Shown here piece after piece: positions 1,667 to 26,614 of a stretch of DNA of 64,000 nucleotides; position 1 is the stretch's first letter; each line of letters starts with the position of its first letter. A program made the position numbers and the translations under genes. Source of the stretch: Dictyobacter formicarum (GTDB taxonomy: Bacteria > Chloroflexota > Ktedonobacteria > Ktedonobacterales > Ktedonobacteraceae); contig NZ_BNJJ01000026.1 of assembly GCF_016587435.1 (NCBI RefSeq), forward strand, positions 1 through 64,000, given 5' to 3'. The notes beneath the pieces were generated by a model that was not told where the DNA came from, searched no databases, and was given only the letters and a program-made list of their open reading frames with translations.

Positions 1667-2850
1667 TTATAAGACCAGGGGCATGTCTGCCCTCCTACTA
1701 CTTTTCCTACTTTTGGCAGGACGTAGATACGTAAACGAACGAGGAAAGTTTACTTGTTCATCAAAGGTGATTTTATGCATATTGATCGAACCAACCAGGT
1801 CGCGGTGTCCAGAGAACCCGCACGCTTTGCAGATCCATTGCCTGTTTCTCGGCTTATGTTTATGCCCACATTCCGGACACTGGCTGCTTGTTCCTCGTTC
1901 GGAGCCAGTGAAGCACTCAATGTGAGCCTGTTTTGCTTTGTGGGTCAGGTAGCCGATATCTTTGCCGTATTCCCACAAGCTCATACGCTGGTTGTGGTGG
2001 CGTCCATTGCTCTTCTTGCGCACCCCATGAGGGTTGCCAATGAAGAGGGTCCCGACGTTGTGTTCGATACAAAAATCGATCACTTTATGGGTGGCTTGAT
2101 GCCGCTGGTCACGAATGCGGCGCTCGGCTCGTCGAGATTGCTTGTTTTTGGCCCGTTGCAACTTCTTCCAACGACGGGAGCGTTTGGTGCATCGAGCTTG
2201 TTTCTTGCTGATCGTGCGCAAGGCCTTGGTGCGTCCTCGTTTGAGTGAGCGTATCCCCCGTCCAGTGACGATGATCGCCTCACTGGTGTTGGTTGTGACC
2301 GTCGCAAGGTGGATCTCGCCAAGATCGACCGTGGCGTGGACCTTTCCCGGAGCTTCTTCAGCTTGCGGGACCTCGACACTGACATGCAATTCATAGCCAT
2401 TGTTCCACACCAGTGTCACCGACCGACTGTGTTCAGGCAGTTCGACTGGCAGCACCAGCGAAGCGCGTCCACGTCCCATTGGTAACACGACGCGCTTGCC
2501 TTCTTTGGTCACGGCTTGCGCAGGCCAGGAGACGGGGTAGAATCGCTTTTCTTTGTAGGGATAGCGCATCCGCATTTCCGGATGCGACTGGCGAAGTTGC
2601 CGGGTGGTCTCCACATTGGCAAGAAAAGCATGCGTGACCATTTGAACGACTGGCTATGCAGCCCAAAGCGTCCTTTAGTGGCTTTCTGCAAGGCATCACG
2701 CCCGGGCCACTTCGTATGCTGCATGCGTGCTTGCAGGTGGAGGGCAACACACGCATTCCAGACCAACGCCGCTTCTTGTTGTGCACAACGCAATCGCTGG
2801 TAGTGCTTTACCGGCAGATGATTCAGTTGGTATATTTTTACGGTGTTCAT
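1667..2850 (-). pseudogene. tnpB: TnpB-like RNA-guided nuclease, frameshifted
   Basis: IS605 OrfB/TnpB. The N-terminal part (from ATG at 2850, MNTVKIYQLN...) and the main part (2641 down to 1667) lie in different frames. Homology-like continuity is restored at about 2640-2650 by adding one base: TCGTTCAAATG would read S-V-Q-M if it were TCGGTTCAAATG. The C-terminal part has the RuvC-I aspartate (VDLGEIHLATV), a zinc ribbon CPECG...CKACG and a final GHRDLVGSINM aspartate. Where most TnpBs have the RuvC-II glutamate (VxEDL) this protein reads LFIGNPHGV; the glutamate of the following SLWEYG could replace it. Probably inactive because of the frameshift, unless the shift is programmed or a sequence error. 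Confidence 0.75.
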
Positions 2851-22223: not shown

Positions 22224-22383
22224 CGTTTCTTGAGAAACAATCTGGCCGAGAGAGGGTTACTGGTCTCGTGTCTGTTGCATTTTATCTGGTGTGCAGAACA
22301 GCTTGATGGCAATCATTGATGCGGCCATCCAACCAATGAGCACCCCGAGCCGCACGAGACGCGCCATAAACGCCGCATTGGTA

Positions 22384-22531
22384 AACCGTTATCTAGAACT
22401 TAGACAAATATGGACACGCCACATGTGCTGTCTAGTTCCTGCTTCATCCAGGGCAGTTTCACTTGATATTCCGACCAAGCCAGCGCTGCCCTGTCCACAG
22501 GCTTCAATCCCGTGTAACTCACGGTACTCTC
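22384..22531 (-). ncRNA. Predicted reRNA of TnpB element 1
   Basis: Between the tnpB stop and the element end the sequence is nearly identical to that of element 2 (for example TTACACGGGATTGAAGCCTG and CAAGTGAAACTGCCCTGGAT on the minus strand), although no protein is encoded. This conservation plus position fits the tnpB guide-RNA scaffold. The guide would start at 22383 and read TACCAATGCGGCGTTTATGG, i.e. the interrupted DUF998 gene. Confidence 0.6.
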
Positions 22532-23656
22532 TCAAGCCAAGTCTGCCAGATTGTAAGAGGCGTTCAAATCACGGTCGATGACCAAACCACATACATGGCA
22601 GACAAAGACACGTTCGCTTACATCTAATTCTTCTCGGACAACTTTGCAGCTTGAGCAGGTCTTGCTGGAAGGTTCCCAGCGAGACACAAATTTTACCTGG
22701 ACACCTGATTGTTGAGCTTTATATTCAATTTGGCGTCGAAATTCATAGAAGCCGACATCGGCAATAGCCCTTGAGAGATGCCTGTTCTTGAGCATCCCTG
22801 ACACATTCAAATCTTCTAACACAATCACAGAAGGCTTCTTGTTCGGTGACTTGGTTTTCATCACCAGTTGCGACGTTGCCTTGTGGAGCGTGTCTTTCCG
22901 AATATTCGCAATGTGCGCATGCAGGCGGGCTAACTTCCGGGTAGCTTTTGTTCGATTCTTGCTCCCTTTTTGTTTACGGGAATGCTGACGCGACGCCCGC
23001 CTCAATTTCTTGAGATTGGATCGTAACGCCTTGGGATTAGCAATCGTTATCCCGTTGGACACCGTTGCCAACGCCTTCACACCCAGATCAACGCCAATGA
23101 CTGTTCCCGTTGCCTCTTGGGGTTCAGGGATGGACTCCTCTACCTGGACACTGACAAACCAGCGGCCCGCCTGCTCGGAGACAGTTGCGGATAAGATCTT
23201 CGCTGCCGTGGGAAGATATCCACGTTCATGCAGTTGCACTATCCCGATGCGGGGGAGCTGAATGCGATCCTCAAAGACGTGAATCGTGCCCGTCAAGCGG
23301 AAGGAGCCAATGCCCTTCTTCTTGCTCTTAAACCTGGGATAACCAAGCTTGCCACGATATTTACCCTGTTTCTTGAGCTTGGTTTTTCCAAAGAAGTTTT
23401 TAAATGCTTTTTCGAGATTACGCAATGCCTCTTGAGGCGCGCACTTGCTGACTTCATACATCCATGACAGTTTGGTTTGTTTGAGGGCATTGAGTTCTTT
23501 TGCATTGGGGGTTTTGCGACCAGCTTGATACTCTTCCTGGTACCGTTTGAGTCCCCAGTTGTATGCCCACCGAGCTGCGCCAGCATGTTGAAGACACGTC
23601 GTTTTTTGCGCATTATTCAGATCCAGTTCGGTTCTGTATCCGCGTGTCATCTTCAT
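22532..23656 (-). CDS. tnpB: TnpB RNA-guided endonuclease, copy 1
   Basis: 374 aa, full-length TnpB. RuvC residues: Asp about 190 in GVDLGVKALA, Glu about 281 in VLEDLNVSGM, Asp about 363 in DRDLNASYN; zinc ribbon CSSC (334-337) and CHVC (352-355). The N-terminal domain (RGYRTELDLNNAQKTTCLQH) is complete. In IS200/IS605 biology TnpB cuts element-free donor sites guided by reRNA so the element is copied back. Translation starts inside the 3' end of the RHH ORF (44-base overlap), which implies coupling. No defect seen, so it is likely active. Confidence 0.92.
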   Translation of the reverse strand: MKMTRGYRTELDLNNAQKTTCLQHAGAARWAYNWGLKRYQEEYQAGRKTPNAKELNALKQTKLSWMYEVSKCAPQEALRNLEKAFKNFFGKTKLKKQGKYRGKLGYPRFKSKKKGIGSFRLTGTIHVFEDRIQLPRIGIVQLHERGYLPTAAKILSATVSEQAGRWFVSVQVEESIPEPQEATGTVIGVDLGVKALATVSNGITIANPKALRSNLKKLRRASRQHSRKQKGSKNRTKATRKLARLHAHIANIRKDTLHKATSQLVMKTKSPNKKPSVIVLEDLNVSGMLKNRHLSRAIADVGFYEFRRQIEYKAQQSGVQVKFVSRWEPSSKTCSSCKVVREELDVSERVFVCHVCGLVIDRDLNASYNLADLA

Positions 23657-23822
23657 GCCTGAGCTCCCTCCCTTTCACTCGTTCATATTCCTGGTCGATG
23701 ATCCGCTCTAGCAAATCAATCATCAACTCATTATTCGTGGCGGCAGCAATTTTTAATTTCTGTAAAGAGTGCCGCCAGATTTTTGTGGTCACACGTTCTT
23801 TTTCCATGTACCCATTGTACAC
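23613..23822 (-). CDS. Small ribbon-helix-helix protein upstream of tnpB, copy 1
   Basis: 69 aa (GTG start; an in-frame ATG is five codons in). The strand KERVTTKIWRHSLQKLKI and helix MIDLLERIIDQEYERVKG resemble the ribbon-helix-helix DNA-binding fold (CopG/Arc type), which binds DNA as a dimer. It overlaps tnpB by 44 bases. A nearly identical ORF precedes tnpB copy 2. Likely a repressor of the element or a partner of TnpB; this is inference. Confidence 0.72.
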   Translation of the reverse strand: MYNGYMEKERVTTKIWRHSLQKLKIAAATNNELMIDLLERIIDQEYERVKGRELRHEDDTRIQNRTGSE

Positions 23823-24463
23823 TATTTACCCCATTATTTCAAGGGAATATATGCCAAGAAAAGGGCATGGATGTCTGTATATTTTAAAATTAGTTACGAC
23901 CCCACAAAAAAGCACAGGAGGAGAAGAACTGCACTTGCCAGACAATAGAGCGCCCACCCGCGCTCCTTGTGTGCGAGGAAGAGCCGGACAAAGACCGCCA
24001 AGGCTGCCGCCAGAACAACGAAGACGAAAAGGGCGCCCAGAGCATGGATCGCACCGTGCCAGGAGGGACCAGTTCCGGCAAGAGATCCTGGAGGAAACCC
24101 ATTGGCAGGGTCAGTCCGACAAAAACCAACAGTCACAAGACCGAGTCCATAGGCCCCGATCAAGAGCGGTCCCCATGTTCCGGCTCGCCCAGGATGCAGT
24201 CTCCTCCAGAGACCAACCGCATAGAGGAGATTGAGTACTCCAGCAAGTACGAAGTTCACCATCTGAACCCATCCCCAGTCCCCAAGAGAGAGAAGGCTCA
24301 GCATATCGAGCCGTGGGTCAAAACCCGGACGCGTGTAGTCCTGAATGAGCACGGTCAAGATAAAGAGGGGACCGGCGATGGCTCCGCAGAGCAACAATAG
24401 TCTGGTCAGTGACAGGGGTTTTCGTGTATTGCCGACAACAGATGATGCTTGCATGGTATTCAT

Positions 24464-24837
24464 GCTATTTGCTCCTTTTTCTAGATCTTCGATAGGAAGT
24501 TATTCATTATCCCAAGCATAAGCGATCAACAGATTTTTCTGATGCGTCTGGAGATGTGTTTCCAACAAGTCTCTAGTTGGGATGAGCGGGTTCAAGAAGC
24601 AGCATTGAGTTGGTAGTTCGGATAACTCCACCAGACCGGCTCTGTCAACTTGGTAAATAGCATGAATGTTCGACGGTTTTTGAGCTCAAGGGTGGGAATT
24701 TAGCGCGAATGTTTGGAATCGACTGGCTCTTTCAAAGTGAATCCGCGCTGGAAGCGGCCTGTTGCGCATACCTATTGTGAATTCGGGCCCACCCGCACGT
24801 TGGGTGATAAACTGTGCAAGAGAGCGACGAGGGGTTG
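24464..24837. other. Spacer with an unidentified ORF remnant and left 63-bp repeat arm
   Basis: On the minus strand 24674-24500 is an open reading end without a start (… IHAIYQVDRAGLVELSELPT ... LLIAYAWDNE, stop); it lies upstream of DUF998 and is a truncated gene I cannot name. The last 63 bases (24775-24837) are the left arm of a perfect inverted repeat. Confidence 0.45.
24775..24837 (+). repeat. Left arm of a 63-bp perfect inverted repeat
   Basis: Exact reverse complement of 27476-27538, beginning TTGTGAATTCGGGCCCACCC and ending GGGGTTG directly at the left end of TnpB element 2. The pair encloses 2,764 bp (24775-27538) carrying RHH, tnpB and a histidine-kinase-like pseudogene. Confidence 0.9.
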
Positions 24838-24908
24838 AAATCAATTTTAAAATTTATGGACATGTATATCCTTTTATCAGCGATTATTCTCTTGATAAAA
24901 AGGAGTAA

Positions 24909-25121
24909 ATGGTGTACAATGAGTACATGAAAAAAGAGCGTGTTACCACAAAAATCTGGCGACATTCCTTGCAAAAATTGAAGATCGTTGCTGCCATCAA
25001 CAACATATCAATGATTGATTTACTCGAACAATTAATCGATCAGGAATACGAAAAGGTCAAAGGGAAGGAACCCAGGCATGAAAGTCATACGCGGATACAA
25101 GACAGAACTGGATCTCAATAA
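24909..25121 (+). CDS. Small ribbon-helix-helix protein upstream of tnpB, copy 2
   Basis: 70 aa, starting at an ATG four bases after AAAAAGGAG. Compared with copy 1 the fold-defining part KERVTTKIWRHSLQKLKI is identical and later residues vary conservatively (SMIDLLEQLIDQEYEKVKG), so the protein is under selection rather than a chance frame. It overlaps tnpB by 44 bases. Predicted DNA-binding dimer; role inferred as element autorepressor or TnpB accessory. Confidence 0.75.
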   Translation: MVYNEYMKKERVTTKIWRHSLQKLKIVAAINNISMIDLLEQLIDQEYEKVKGKEPRHESHTRIQDRTGSQ

Positions 25122-26214
25122 TGCGCAAAAGACTGCATGCCTGAAACATGCAGGTGCAGCTCGATATACATACAATTGGGGGCTTCAACGGTATCAGGAG
25201 GAATACCAGGCTGGCCGGAAAACTCCCAACGCCATGAGCTTGCATAAGGAATTAAACGCCCTGAAGCAGACCGAACTGTCGTGGATGTACGAAGTGAGCA
25301 AGTGCGCTCCTCAAGAAGCCTTGCGCAATCTCGAAAAGGCATTTAAGAACTTCTTTGGAAAAGCCAAACTGAAGGCGCAAGGCACATATCGAGGCAAACT
25401 CGGCTATCCCCGTTTCAAATCCAAAAAGAAAGGCATCGGTTCCTTTCGCCTCACAGGTGCGATCCATGTTTTCGCGGATGGTATTCAACTTCCCCGCCTG
25501 GGAACCCTGCGACTCCATGAGCATGGCTATCTCCCAACCACCGCCAAGGTTTTATCAGCCACCGTCTCGGAGCAAGCAGGTCGCTGGTTTGTGAGTGTGC
25601 AGGTTGAGGTGACTGTCCCTGATCCAGTACAAGCTACTGGTCAGGTCATCGGTATTGATTTGGGCATCAAGGCGTTGGCCACCGCCTCTGATGGTACTGT
25701 CATTGCAAATCCAAAAGCATTGCGCTCTCACCTCAAGAAGTTACGACGTGCTTCTCGTCAGCATTCCCGCAAGCAGAAAGGAAGCAAGCATAGAGTGAAA
25801 GCCACGCGCAAACTTGCTCGTCTGCATGCTCATATTGCCAATATACGCAAAGATACGCTTCACAAAGCCACCTCACAGATCGTGATGAAAACCAAGTCGC
25901 GTGATGTGAGACCCGCCGTGATCGTATTGGAAGATCTCAACGTTGCAGGTATGCTCAAAAACAGAAGTCTTTCCAGAGCAATTGCCGATGTTGGATTTGC
26001 TGAGTTTCGACGTCAGGTAGAATACAAAGCCCTGGAGACAGGCATCCAAGTGAAATTTGTCTCACAGTGGGAGCCATCCAGTAAAACATGTTCAAGTTGC
26101 AAAGCCGTGCGGGAAGAACTGGATTTAAGCGAACGCGTCTTTGTTTGCCATGCATGCGGTTTGGTGATCGATCGTGATGTCAACGCATCCTATAATCTGG
26201 CAGACCTGGCATAA
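25078..26214 (+). CDS. tnpB: TnpB RNA-guided endonuclease, copy 2
   Basis: 378 aa, closely related to copy 1 with a four-codon insertion (MSLH) near residue 53. All catalytic residues remain: IDLGIKALA, VLEDLNVAGM, DRDVNASYN; zinc ribbon CSSC and CHAC. AAGGAA precedes the ATG inside the RHH ORF. The many silent and conservative differences from copy 1 show both copies have evolved under purifying selection. Likely a functional nuclease whose guide would come from sequence after 26365. Confidence 0.92.
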   Translation: MKVIRGYKTELDLNNAQKTACLKHAGAARYTYNWGLQRYQEEYQAGRKTPNAMSLHKELNALKQTELSWMYEVSKCAPQEALRNLEKAFKNFFGKAKLKAQGTYRGKLGYPRFKSKKKGIGSFRLTGAIHVFADGIQLPRLGTLRLHEHGYLPTTAKVLSATVSEQAGRWFVSVQVEVTVPDPVQATGQVIGIDLGIKALATASDGTVIANPKALRSHLKKLRRASRQHSRKQKGSKHRVKATRKLARLHAHIANIRKDTLHKATSQIVMKTKSRDVRPAVIVLEDLNVAGMLKNRSLSRAIADVGFAEFRRQVEYKALETGIQVKFVSQWEPSSKTCSSCKAVREELDLSERVFVCHACGLVIDRDVNASYNLADLA

Positions 26215-26365
26215 GCGAGGAGTACCGTGAGTTACACGGGATTGAAGCCTGTGGACAGGGCAGCGCTGGCTTGATAGCAATATCAAGTGAAACTGCCCTG
26301 GATGAAGCAGGAACCAGACATCAGATATGGCTTGTCCATAAATGTCTAAGTTCTGGATAACGGTT
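26215..26365 (+). ncRNA. Predicted reRNA of TnpB element 2
   Basis: Conserved with element 1 downstream of tnpB despite lack of coding, ending TCTAAGTTCTGGATAACGGT(T). The guide would begin at 26366 (ACGAAGTCGTAAGAGAAAGG). Confidence 0.6.
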
Positions 26366-26614
26366 ACGAAGTCGTAAGAGAAAGGCACCTCTCTACCGAA
26401 GAGGAGAAGCATCTGGCCGACAACCAGGTGTTTCTTTTGTGAGTGAGACGTGTTCTTCTGGTCGAGTTCATTGTGTAGGGTGGAAAAGGAAAGCCAAGCA
26501 AAAGCCACGCGAGAAAGGGGCTTTGGCCATGTATCAGAGTTAGCTTGCGCCATCGTGTAGACAAGAGAGGGTTTCAAAAGTGAAAAAGTGCTGGGATAGA
26601 GAGGAAAAACGAAC
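26366..26614. other. Spacer after TnpB element 2
   Basis: About 250 bases without a recognisable gene; carries the presumed guide segment at its start and the leader of the following pseudogene. Confidence 0.4.

Follow-up and report, generated by a model that had tools for sequence, protein, structure and literature searches.

The two RHH-TnpB elements of the window (the 64-kb stretch of DNA analysed here) are, in the reading that we regard as somewhat probable, transposase-less IS607 elements that are moved in trans, encode a guide-directed nuclease and carry an RHH protein as its probable autorepressor. Sequence comparison establishes the boundaries of element 1, its GG crossover, a conserved structure in the predicted reRNA and the position of the RHH gene in the tnpA slot. 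In the proposed mechanism, the elements have IS607-type ends in a GGG target, intact tnpB motifs and a right-end reRNA whose predicted guide comes from the adjoining host DNA. The serine TnpA of an intact relative would move RHH-tnpB elements in trans. TnpB and its reRNA would cut the empty allele next to GGG, and this cut would lead to recombination that keeps or restores the element. The RHH protein would bind the promoter in the left-end region and repress the transcript that carries RHH, tnpB and reRNA, which would hold the nuclease at a low level once the element has settled.

The elements bear on two wider questions, how hosts escape harm from TnpB nucleases and how TnpB elements survive with no transposase of their own. 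A recurrent DNA-binding partner makes the control of TnpB testable, with a defined promoter, a target allele and a TAM prediction at hand, and the DUF998 alleles of K. racemifer are a natural target for the predicted guide of element 1.

Table 1. Features of the two elements and of the interrupted gene (window positions)
Feature	Position	Strand	Size and basis
DUF998 gene, 3' part	22257..22385	-	129 nt, starts TTTACCAATGCG; empty-allele comparison
Element 1, predicted 20-nt guide TTTACCAATGCGGCGTTTAT	22366..22385	-	Analogy with ISXfa1 (PMC10711439); allele match
Element 1, whole insert including one GG of the crossover	22386..23899	-	1514 bp; two empty alleles
Element 1, right end and reRNA scaffold, ending GATAACGG	22386..22531	-	RAGATH-18, sub-threshold, E 0.0087
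Element 1, TnpB	22532..23656	-	374 aa; Pfam OrfB_IS605, Cas12f1-like_TNB, HTH_OrfB; motifs
Element 1, RHH gene	23613..23807	-	64 aa; profile, selection; fold modelled on the element 2 copy
Element 1, predicted promoter TTGAAA-17-TACAAT	23814..23842	-	Ends 6 nt before ATG (leaderless); spanned by 9-bp repeats
Element 1, left end	23843..23899	-	Left-end alignment with six others
DUF998 gene, 5' part	23900..24463	-	564 nt; Pfam PF06197 and empty alleles L127, L155
Element 2, whole insert	24835..26363	+	1529 bp; left flank GAGGGG, right end GATAACGG; collinear with element 1
Element 2, predicted promoter TTGATA-17-TACAAT	24892..24920	+	6 nt before ATG
Element 2, RHH gene	24927..25121	+	64 aa; profile, selection, Pfam, fold model
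Element 2, TnpB	25078..26214	+	378 aa; Pfam; relatives
Element 2, right end and reRNA scaffold	26218..26363	+	Fold z -3.6; RAGATH-18 E 0.0058
Element 2, predicted 20-nt guide	26364..26383	+	Position after AACGG

The interrupted gene and the exact joint

The gene interrupted by element 1, on the minus strand, belongs to DUF998 (Pfam PF06197, E 1.7e-36), and its two parts together make 231 codons including the stop. A search with the N-terminal part across 47 Ktedonobacteria genomes found two uninterrupted copies in K. racemifer (G033), whose proteins are 98% and 97% identical to this query and whose DNA is 94-96% identical to the gene in the window. Together with the Pfam assignment, these two genes bear out the proposal of the first-pass annotation that the element splits a DUF998 gene. 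The two K. racemifer copies (L257, L258) lie in different places and are 94% identical to each other over about 1 kb.

Both empty alleles carry the joint GTGGGG/TTTACCAATGCG (read there as GTGGGGTTTACCAATGCGGCG), and the 5' part in the window ends in the same GTGGGG, which holds the predicted TAM GGG and the GG of the crossover. When the window is aligned to these alleles, the left flank matches through GGGGT and the right flank from GGTTTACC, leaving an overlap of GGT. By this alignment the overlap is the trace of a 2-bp GG crossover, the T being common to both sides by chance. Against the two empty alleles, element 1 is inserted without target duplication, TCG belongs to the element and TTT to the host.

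The joint had first been placed at GTGGGGTCG/ACCAATGCG, after GGGGTCG and before ACCAAT. Comparison with uninterrupted DUF998 alleles, named beforehand as the test that could refute it, went against both this joint and the TAM claimed with it. Coding does rejoin in frame as had been claimed, and this says nothing for the proposed cut point, since the true joint keeps the frame as well. Both joins being in frame explains the misplacement, as reading alone could not separate them.

Organization of the two elements

Elements 1 and 2 are collinear, with 75.9% identity over 1521 nt, and their TnpBs are 85% identical, with a dS for tnpB that is too high to compute. RHH and tnpB are the only ORFs recognised within either insert. 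In element 1 the RHH gene sits in the tnpA slot and overlaps tnpB by 44 nt. Its TnpB carries the motifs GVDLG, VLEDLN and DRDLN together with two CxxC pairs, which we take to be the RuvC triad and the zinc site, respectively. When up to 3 mismatches are allowed, the window contains two occurrences of the 20-nt right-end motif of element 2, one in each element, and 100 shuffles contain none. No transposase TnpA was found within the 64-kb window. A third TnpB gene of another kind (1667-2653, minus strand, 324 aa counted from ATG, profile E 2.6e-39) lies elsewhere in the window and has no RHH match beside it.

A joined query for the empty sites of four elements succeeded in a single case, the relative L002, whose empty site in G026 aligned across the joint with no gap there (69% over 360 nt). 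It found no empty site for element 2, whose left flank matches several places and is thus partly repetitive, and established none for the relatives L018 and L001.

Ends, predicted TAM and family placement

GGGG stands at the left joint of both window elements. Among relatives, the left joint has GGG in all 16 left ends obtained from copy alignment, a count that omits eight relatives whose ends were found by a GGG-containing pattern or by eye; 4 of 20 loci yielded no left end. In such an alignment a G common to all copies could belong to the element, so that only empty alleles decide. The right end reads AACGG, followed by unrelated DNA, in the 13 of 13 relatives with displayed right ends (judged by eye), and again AACGG in 18 of 20 further loci. 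These insertion sites support GGG as the predicted TAM.

A TAM of the form GGGGTYG had been read from the base runs GGGGTCG and GGGGTTG before the two left ends. The GGGG of these runs is indeed the left-joint sequence, while TCG and TTG lie inside the elements; by the empty alleles, TYG forms the left terminus of the element itself. The broader expectation of a G-rich TAM in the left flank holds up, with GGGG beside the guide match in both empty alleles.

The family placement changes as well. IS200/IS605 elements are marked by a Y1 TnpA, subterminal hairpins and a target site just 3' of a motif resembling TTAC or TTGAT. Membership in that group was considered and rejected, the target here being GGG with a GG crossover, unlike a TTAC/TTGAT-type target. 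The TnpB nearest to that of element 2 is L001 from Dictyobacter arantiisoli (87% identical), which is preceded by a 193-aa serine TnpA. Upstream of the 80 closest TnpB loci there is a serine TnpA in 28, RHH in 2 and neither in 44, the remaining 6 running into a contig edge. A tree of the TnpBs joins L001 to element 2 and L002 (support 95/93) within a clade that includes element 1 (100/99); in it the placement of L269 and L274 is unsure, a long-branch join is flagged, and L018, with its broken tnpB, is omitted. Ends, predicted reRNA and nearest TnpB place both elements with IS607 rather than IS200/IS605, and the original IS200/IS605 framing gives way to the serine-recombinase relatives, the GG crossover, the AACGG right end and the RAGATH-18-like reRNA. 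As no TnpA was found in the window and one is present in the close relative L001, 'IS607-derived, non-autonomous' describes them better than autonomous IS607.

An IS200/IS605-type element with TAM GGGGTYG and the joint GGGGTCG/ACCAAT could appeal to a joint that is in frame on paper and to GGGGTYG standing left of both elements. It is very improbable: the empty alleles read GTGGGGTTTACC, which refutes that joint, the relatives have GGG in common at the left joint and not TYG, and serine TnpA genes occur in the closest relative and at 28 of the 80 TnpB loci.

The homology of L001 to the four RHH elements starts 0-10 nt into tnpB which, with the tree, indicates that RHH and tnpA have been exchanged for each other ahead of one kind of tnpB. 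Imperfectly inverted similarity between the two ends of an element was matched by none of 300 shuffles for element 2, by 11 for element 1, 16 for L001, 146 for L018 and 238 for L002. In L010 (2902-3001) from Thermogemmatispora tikiterensis, tnpA is seemingly cut down to its first codons before tnpB (by eye), and this element seems to be an independent loss of tnpA.

reRNA, guide and natural target

The right end of both elements gives a full-length RAGATH-18 covariance match (E values in Table 1), at 30.7 bits for element 2 and 30.0 bits for element 1 against a cut-off of 44.9, and none reaches the gathering threshold. Between the two elements, the last 146 nt, counted to the final base of AACGG, show 91% identity. 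Scaffold and guide of element 2 (26218-26383) fold with a z of -3.6, and none of 200 shuffles folds as well. A compensatory change occurs somewhere among 12 sequences in 26 of the 38 predicted pairs, several pairs being broken in some sequences.

Genome G032 contains 222-bp elements (L243-L250) that have IS607-type ends and no tnpB (three displayed), with a shortened reRNA-like scaffold ending in AACGG beside a private flank. They are apparently reRNA-only miniature elements; 18 matches were scored out of 122 first-look candidates in this genome.

Following the example of ISXfa1 (PMC10711439), the guide of element 1 was taken to begin directly after GG. The guide predicted in this way, TTTACCAATGCGGCGTTTAT, matches K. 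racemifer at 20 of 20 positions in L155/L258 and 19 of 20 in L127/L257, both after GGGG. These matches support the earlier proposals that the guide is taken from the right flank and that the uninterrupted DUF998 allele is its natural target. The guide is the DUF998 continuation, as had been said, and the empty alleles move its start from 22383 to 22385. The reRNA would thus address exactly those alleles that lack the element, and the full match beside GGGG makes it plausible that TnpB cuts the empty DUF998 allele. From this we infer, in line with the first-pass annotation, that element 1 may protect itself by cutting the healed allele. Should the organism of the window, too, possess a second DUF998 copy, the guide of element 1 would find a target within the same genome. 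For element 2, no target of the guide was found in the window or in the relatives' loci examined.

The RHH protein: selection, fold and pairing with TnpB

Outside the overlap with tnpB, the RHH gene has a dN of 0.06-0.14 against a dS that runs from 0.8 to too high to compute; by these rates it is under strong purifying selection. The 64-aa protein models as an RHH fold. In the model of the element 2 copy, helices at residues 12-25 and 29-45 follow an extended N-terminus, with no strand assigned in the monomer; pLDDT is 91-99 over residues 1-40 and 82 on average, and the tail is of low confidence. The best-ranked Foldseek neighbours are mostly RHH proteins (CopASO, Arc, CopG and RHH antitoxins), at E values of 0.15 and above and none below 0.1, and AtaR, TacA and KacA are further solved folds near the model. 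Pfam gives only sub-threshold matches to RHH_10 (E 0.0078 and 0.11).

A profile of the protein finds 24 places in 15 of the 47 Ktedonobacteria genomes, matches 16 of 400 Chloroflexota genomes at 1e-8 (one of them new), and matches 143 of 5.8 billion proteins at 1e-6, with no Pfam domain in the 120 matches listed of these 143. A TnpB on the same strand lies directly behind the RHH gene in 20 of 25 genomic places, as judged with a profile of six TnpBs, five of which come from loci later scored. Independent Pfam support was obtained for 8 of 10 downstream TnpB ORFs tested, and the two misses (L200, L201) are incomplete ORFs. In the remaining places TnpB is interrupted (L277) or was undetected (L195, L276, L202, L206); L195 ends at a contig edge and L206 shows no TnpB. 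At L276 (the same as L190) and at L202 from K. racemifer, RHH is followed by about 20 TnpB codons and then by a group II intron-type gene (by eye), with a similar TnpB/intron joint in both. L187/L018 from Dictyobacter kobayashii keeps the RHH core intact in front of a tnpB disrupted by stop codons and a shift of frame.

The TnpBs behind RHH are diverse in the tree. The multi-copy RHH families differ in their ends, which indicates that RHH travels with TnpB and not with one kind of end. Three other families with both ends readable have elements of about 1.5-1.6 kb, leaving room for RHH and tnpB only. Most TnpBs seem to be without RHH, as in G002, with 28 TnpB matches (some of them pieces of one gene) and a single RHH.

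The comparison family, Pfam RHH_1, has 26 matches in 13 of the 47 genomes, and 16 of these adjoin a TnpB and 10 do not, which makes RHH_1 unfit as an unlinked control. Fifteen of the RHH_1 genes beside TnpB (L280-L304) are divergent and one is co-directional, some being copies of one element. In IS605 elements with divergent genes, tnpA occupies this position beside tnpB. Palindromes in ten of the divergent intergenic stretches between RHH_1 and TnpB were not significant (P 0.063-0.983).

Three readings of the RHH protein other than an autorepressor bear on these data. The least probable of them takes RHH for a passenger without function in the element, left behind by some unrelated recombination event; the many related TnpBs without RHH would fit it, and the strong purifying selection and the recurrent pairing with diverse TnpBs speak against it, so that we hold it to be quite improbable. 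In a second reading, which we count as improbable though less so, RHH and TnpB form a toxin-antitoxin-like pair, in which RHH would bind both the promoter and, through its variable tail, TnpB itself, holding the nuclease inactive. Gene order, overlap, a model resembling type II antitoxins (AtaR, CopASO, TacA, KacA) and the low confidence of the tail in that model would agree with this; part of the tail overlaps tnpB in this clade, however, and the overlap alone may explain tail conservation. The third, a role in transposition, is considered with the promoter below.

A wider view, which we hold to be unlikely, would see in RHH-TnpB a selfish module that is portable and has no transposase. It would combine a guided nuclease with a dedicated repressor-antitoxin, join different transposon ends by way of the tnpA slot and maintain itself through cleavage of empty alleles. 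Its persistence would resemble that of homing endonucleases and of toxin-antitoxin pairs.

Promoter and candidate operator

The best predicted promoter ends 6-7 nt before the ATG in all 23 distinct RHH upstream regions, and its spacer is 17 bp in 20 of the 23, the weakest fits being L206 and L193; the fit was made without a shuffle control, and for L195 the start codon was chosen manually. With the promoter so close to the ATG, RHH transcripts should be leaderless. By eye, tnpA of L001 apparently has the same promoter layout.

L188, L190, L193 and L196 have long palindromes over the -10 box, with the centre 13 nt ahead of the ATG, and for each none of 300 shuffles does as well. L113 has a palindrome one base off this common centre (P 0.037), and the other 18 of the 23 regions have P values of 0.22 or more, those of the window's clade being 0.43-1.0. 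At least 6 of 8 positions pair at the common centre in 7 of 22 families, against 2 to 4 in the four families of the window's clade. A palindromic operator for all RHH-TnpB families was rejected on this count. Averaged over the 22 families, the best centre scores 0.511 and the largest of 500 shuffle values 0.409; shuffling erases the promoter motifs that the families have in common, and some of the families are closely related. The shuffles are also beaten by three further centres (0.448, 0.429 and 0.426), which indicates that the shuffle is too lenient and the family mean weak evidence.

The window's clade has instead three weak-to-moderate 9-bp repeats across the promoter, which were noticed first and tested afterwards (P 0.015 for element 1, 0.019 for element 2 and 0.13 for L018, with none of 5000 shuffles as good for L002). 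It is likely, judging from these upstream sequences, that RHH autorepresses tnpB and the reRNA through a candidate operator at the promoter.

Lying about 57-85 bp from the left joint, the promoter overlaps the stretch that TnpA covers in IS1535, and RHH might on that account be a transposition factor, which would bind the left end and help or block TnpA acting in trans. Its relatives sit in elements with quite different ends, and we regard this role as rather improbable, slightly more so than the toxin-antitoxin-like pair.

Comparison with known systems

According to PMC6188088, IS607 inserts by a GG crossover into (G)GG and the TnpA of IS1535 covers 8 to 78 bp as judged by exonuclease, and according to PMC10711439 ISXfa1 has the TAM GGG and a flanking nucleotide that is part of the scaffold. 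IS607, IS1535 and ISXfa1 resemble the window elements in the GG crossover without duplication, the (G)GG target, the tnpB and a reRNA that runs into the right flank. In the same accounts the three have common sequences in both ends, where the window elements give shuffle counts of 0 and 11 of 300. IS607 TnpBs with a RAGATH-18-derived reRNA, such as ISFba1, have a TAM of AGGAG or GAGGG and a TnpB of 387 aa according to PMC11061315. The likeness to ISFba1 extends to TnpB size, a RAGATH-18-like scaffold and a G-rich TAM (taken here from insertion sites); the differences from it are the RAGATH-18 score, which here lies below the Rfam cut-off, and the RHH partner. Unlike IS607, the window elements have no tnpA, and in its slot they carry a 64-aa RHH gene that overlaps tnpB.

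The IS1341 group comprises TnpB-only IS elements. In having tnpB without tnpA and in being presumably moved in trans, the window elements are like this group (PMC3119063, PMC9956272). They depart from it in their second gene, RHH, and in their IS607-type ends.

In the open-licence PMC literature searched, to the extent of the texts retrieved, no RHH or CopG protein paired with TnpB is described. In type II toxin-antitoxin operons with an RHH antitoxin, the short RHH gene comes first and overlaps its partner's gene. The RHH-TnpB pairs are like these operons in having RHH first and overlapping genes and, in some families, operator-like repeats at the promoter, and unlike them in that the partner is a predicted RNA-guided DNA nuclease. 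The IS607 TnpB and its reRNA are of a known kind, and the RHH partner in the tnpA slot would be the new part, within the open-licence texts covered by the search.
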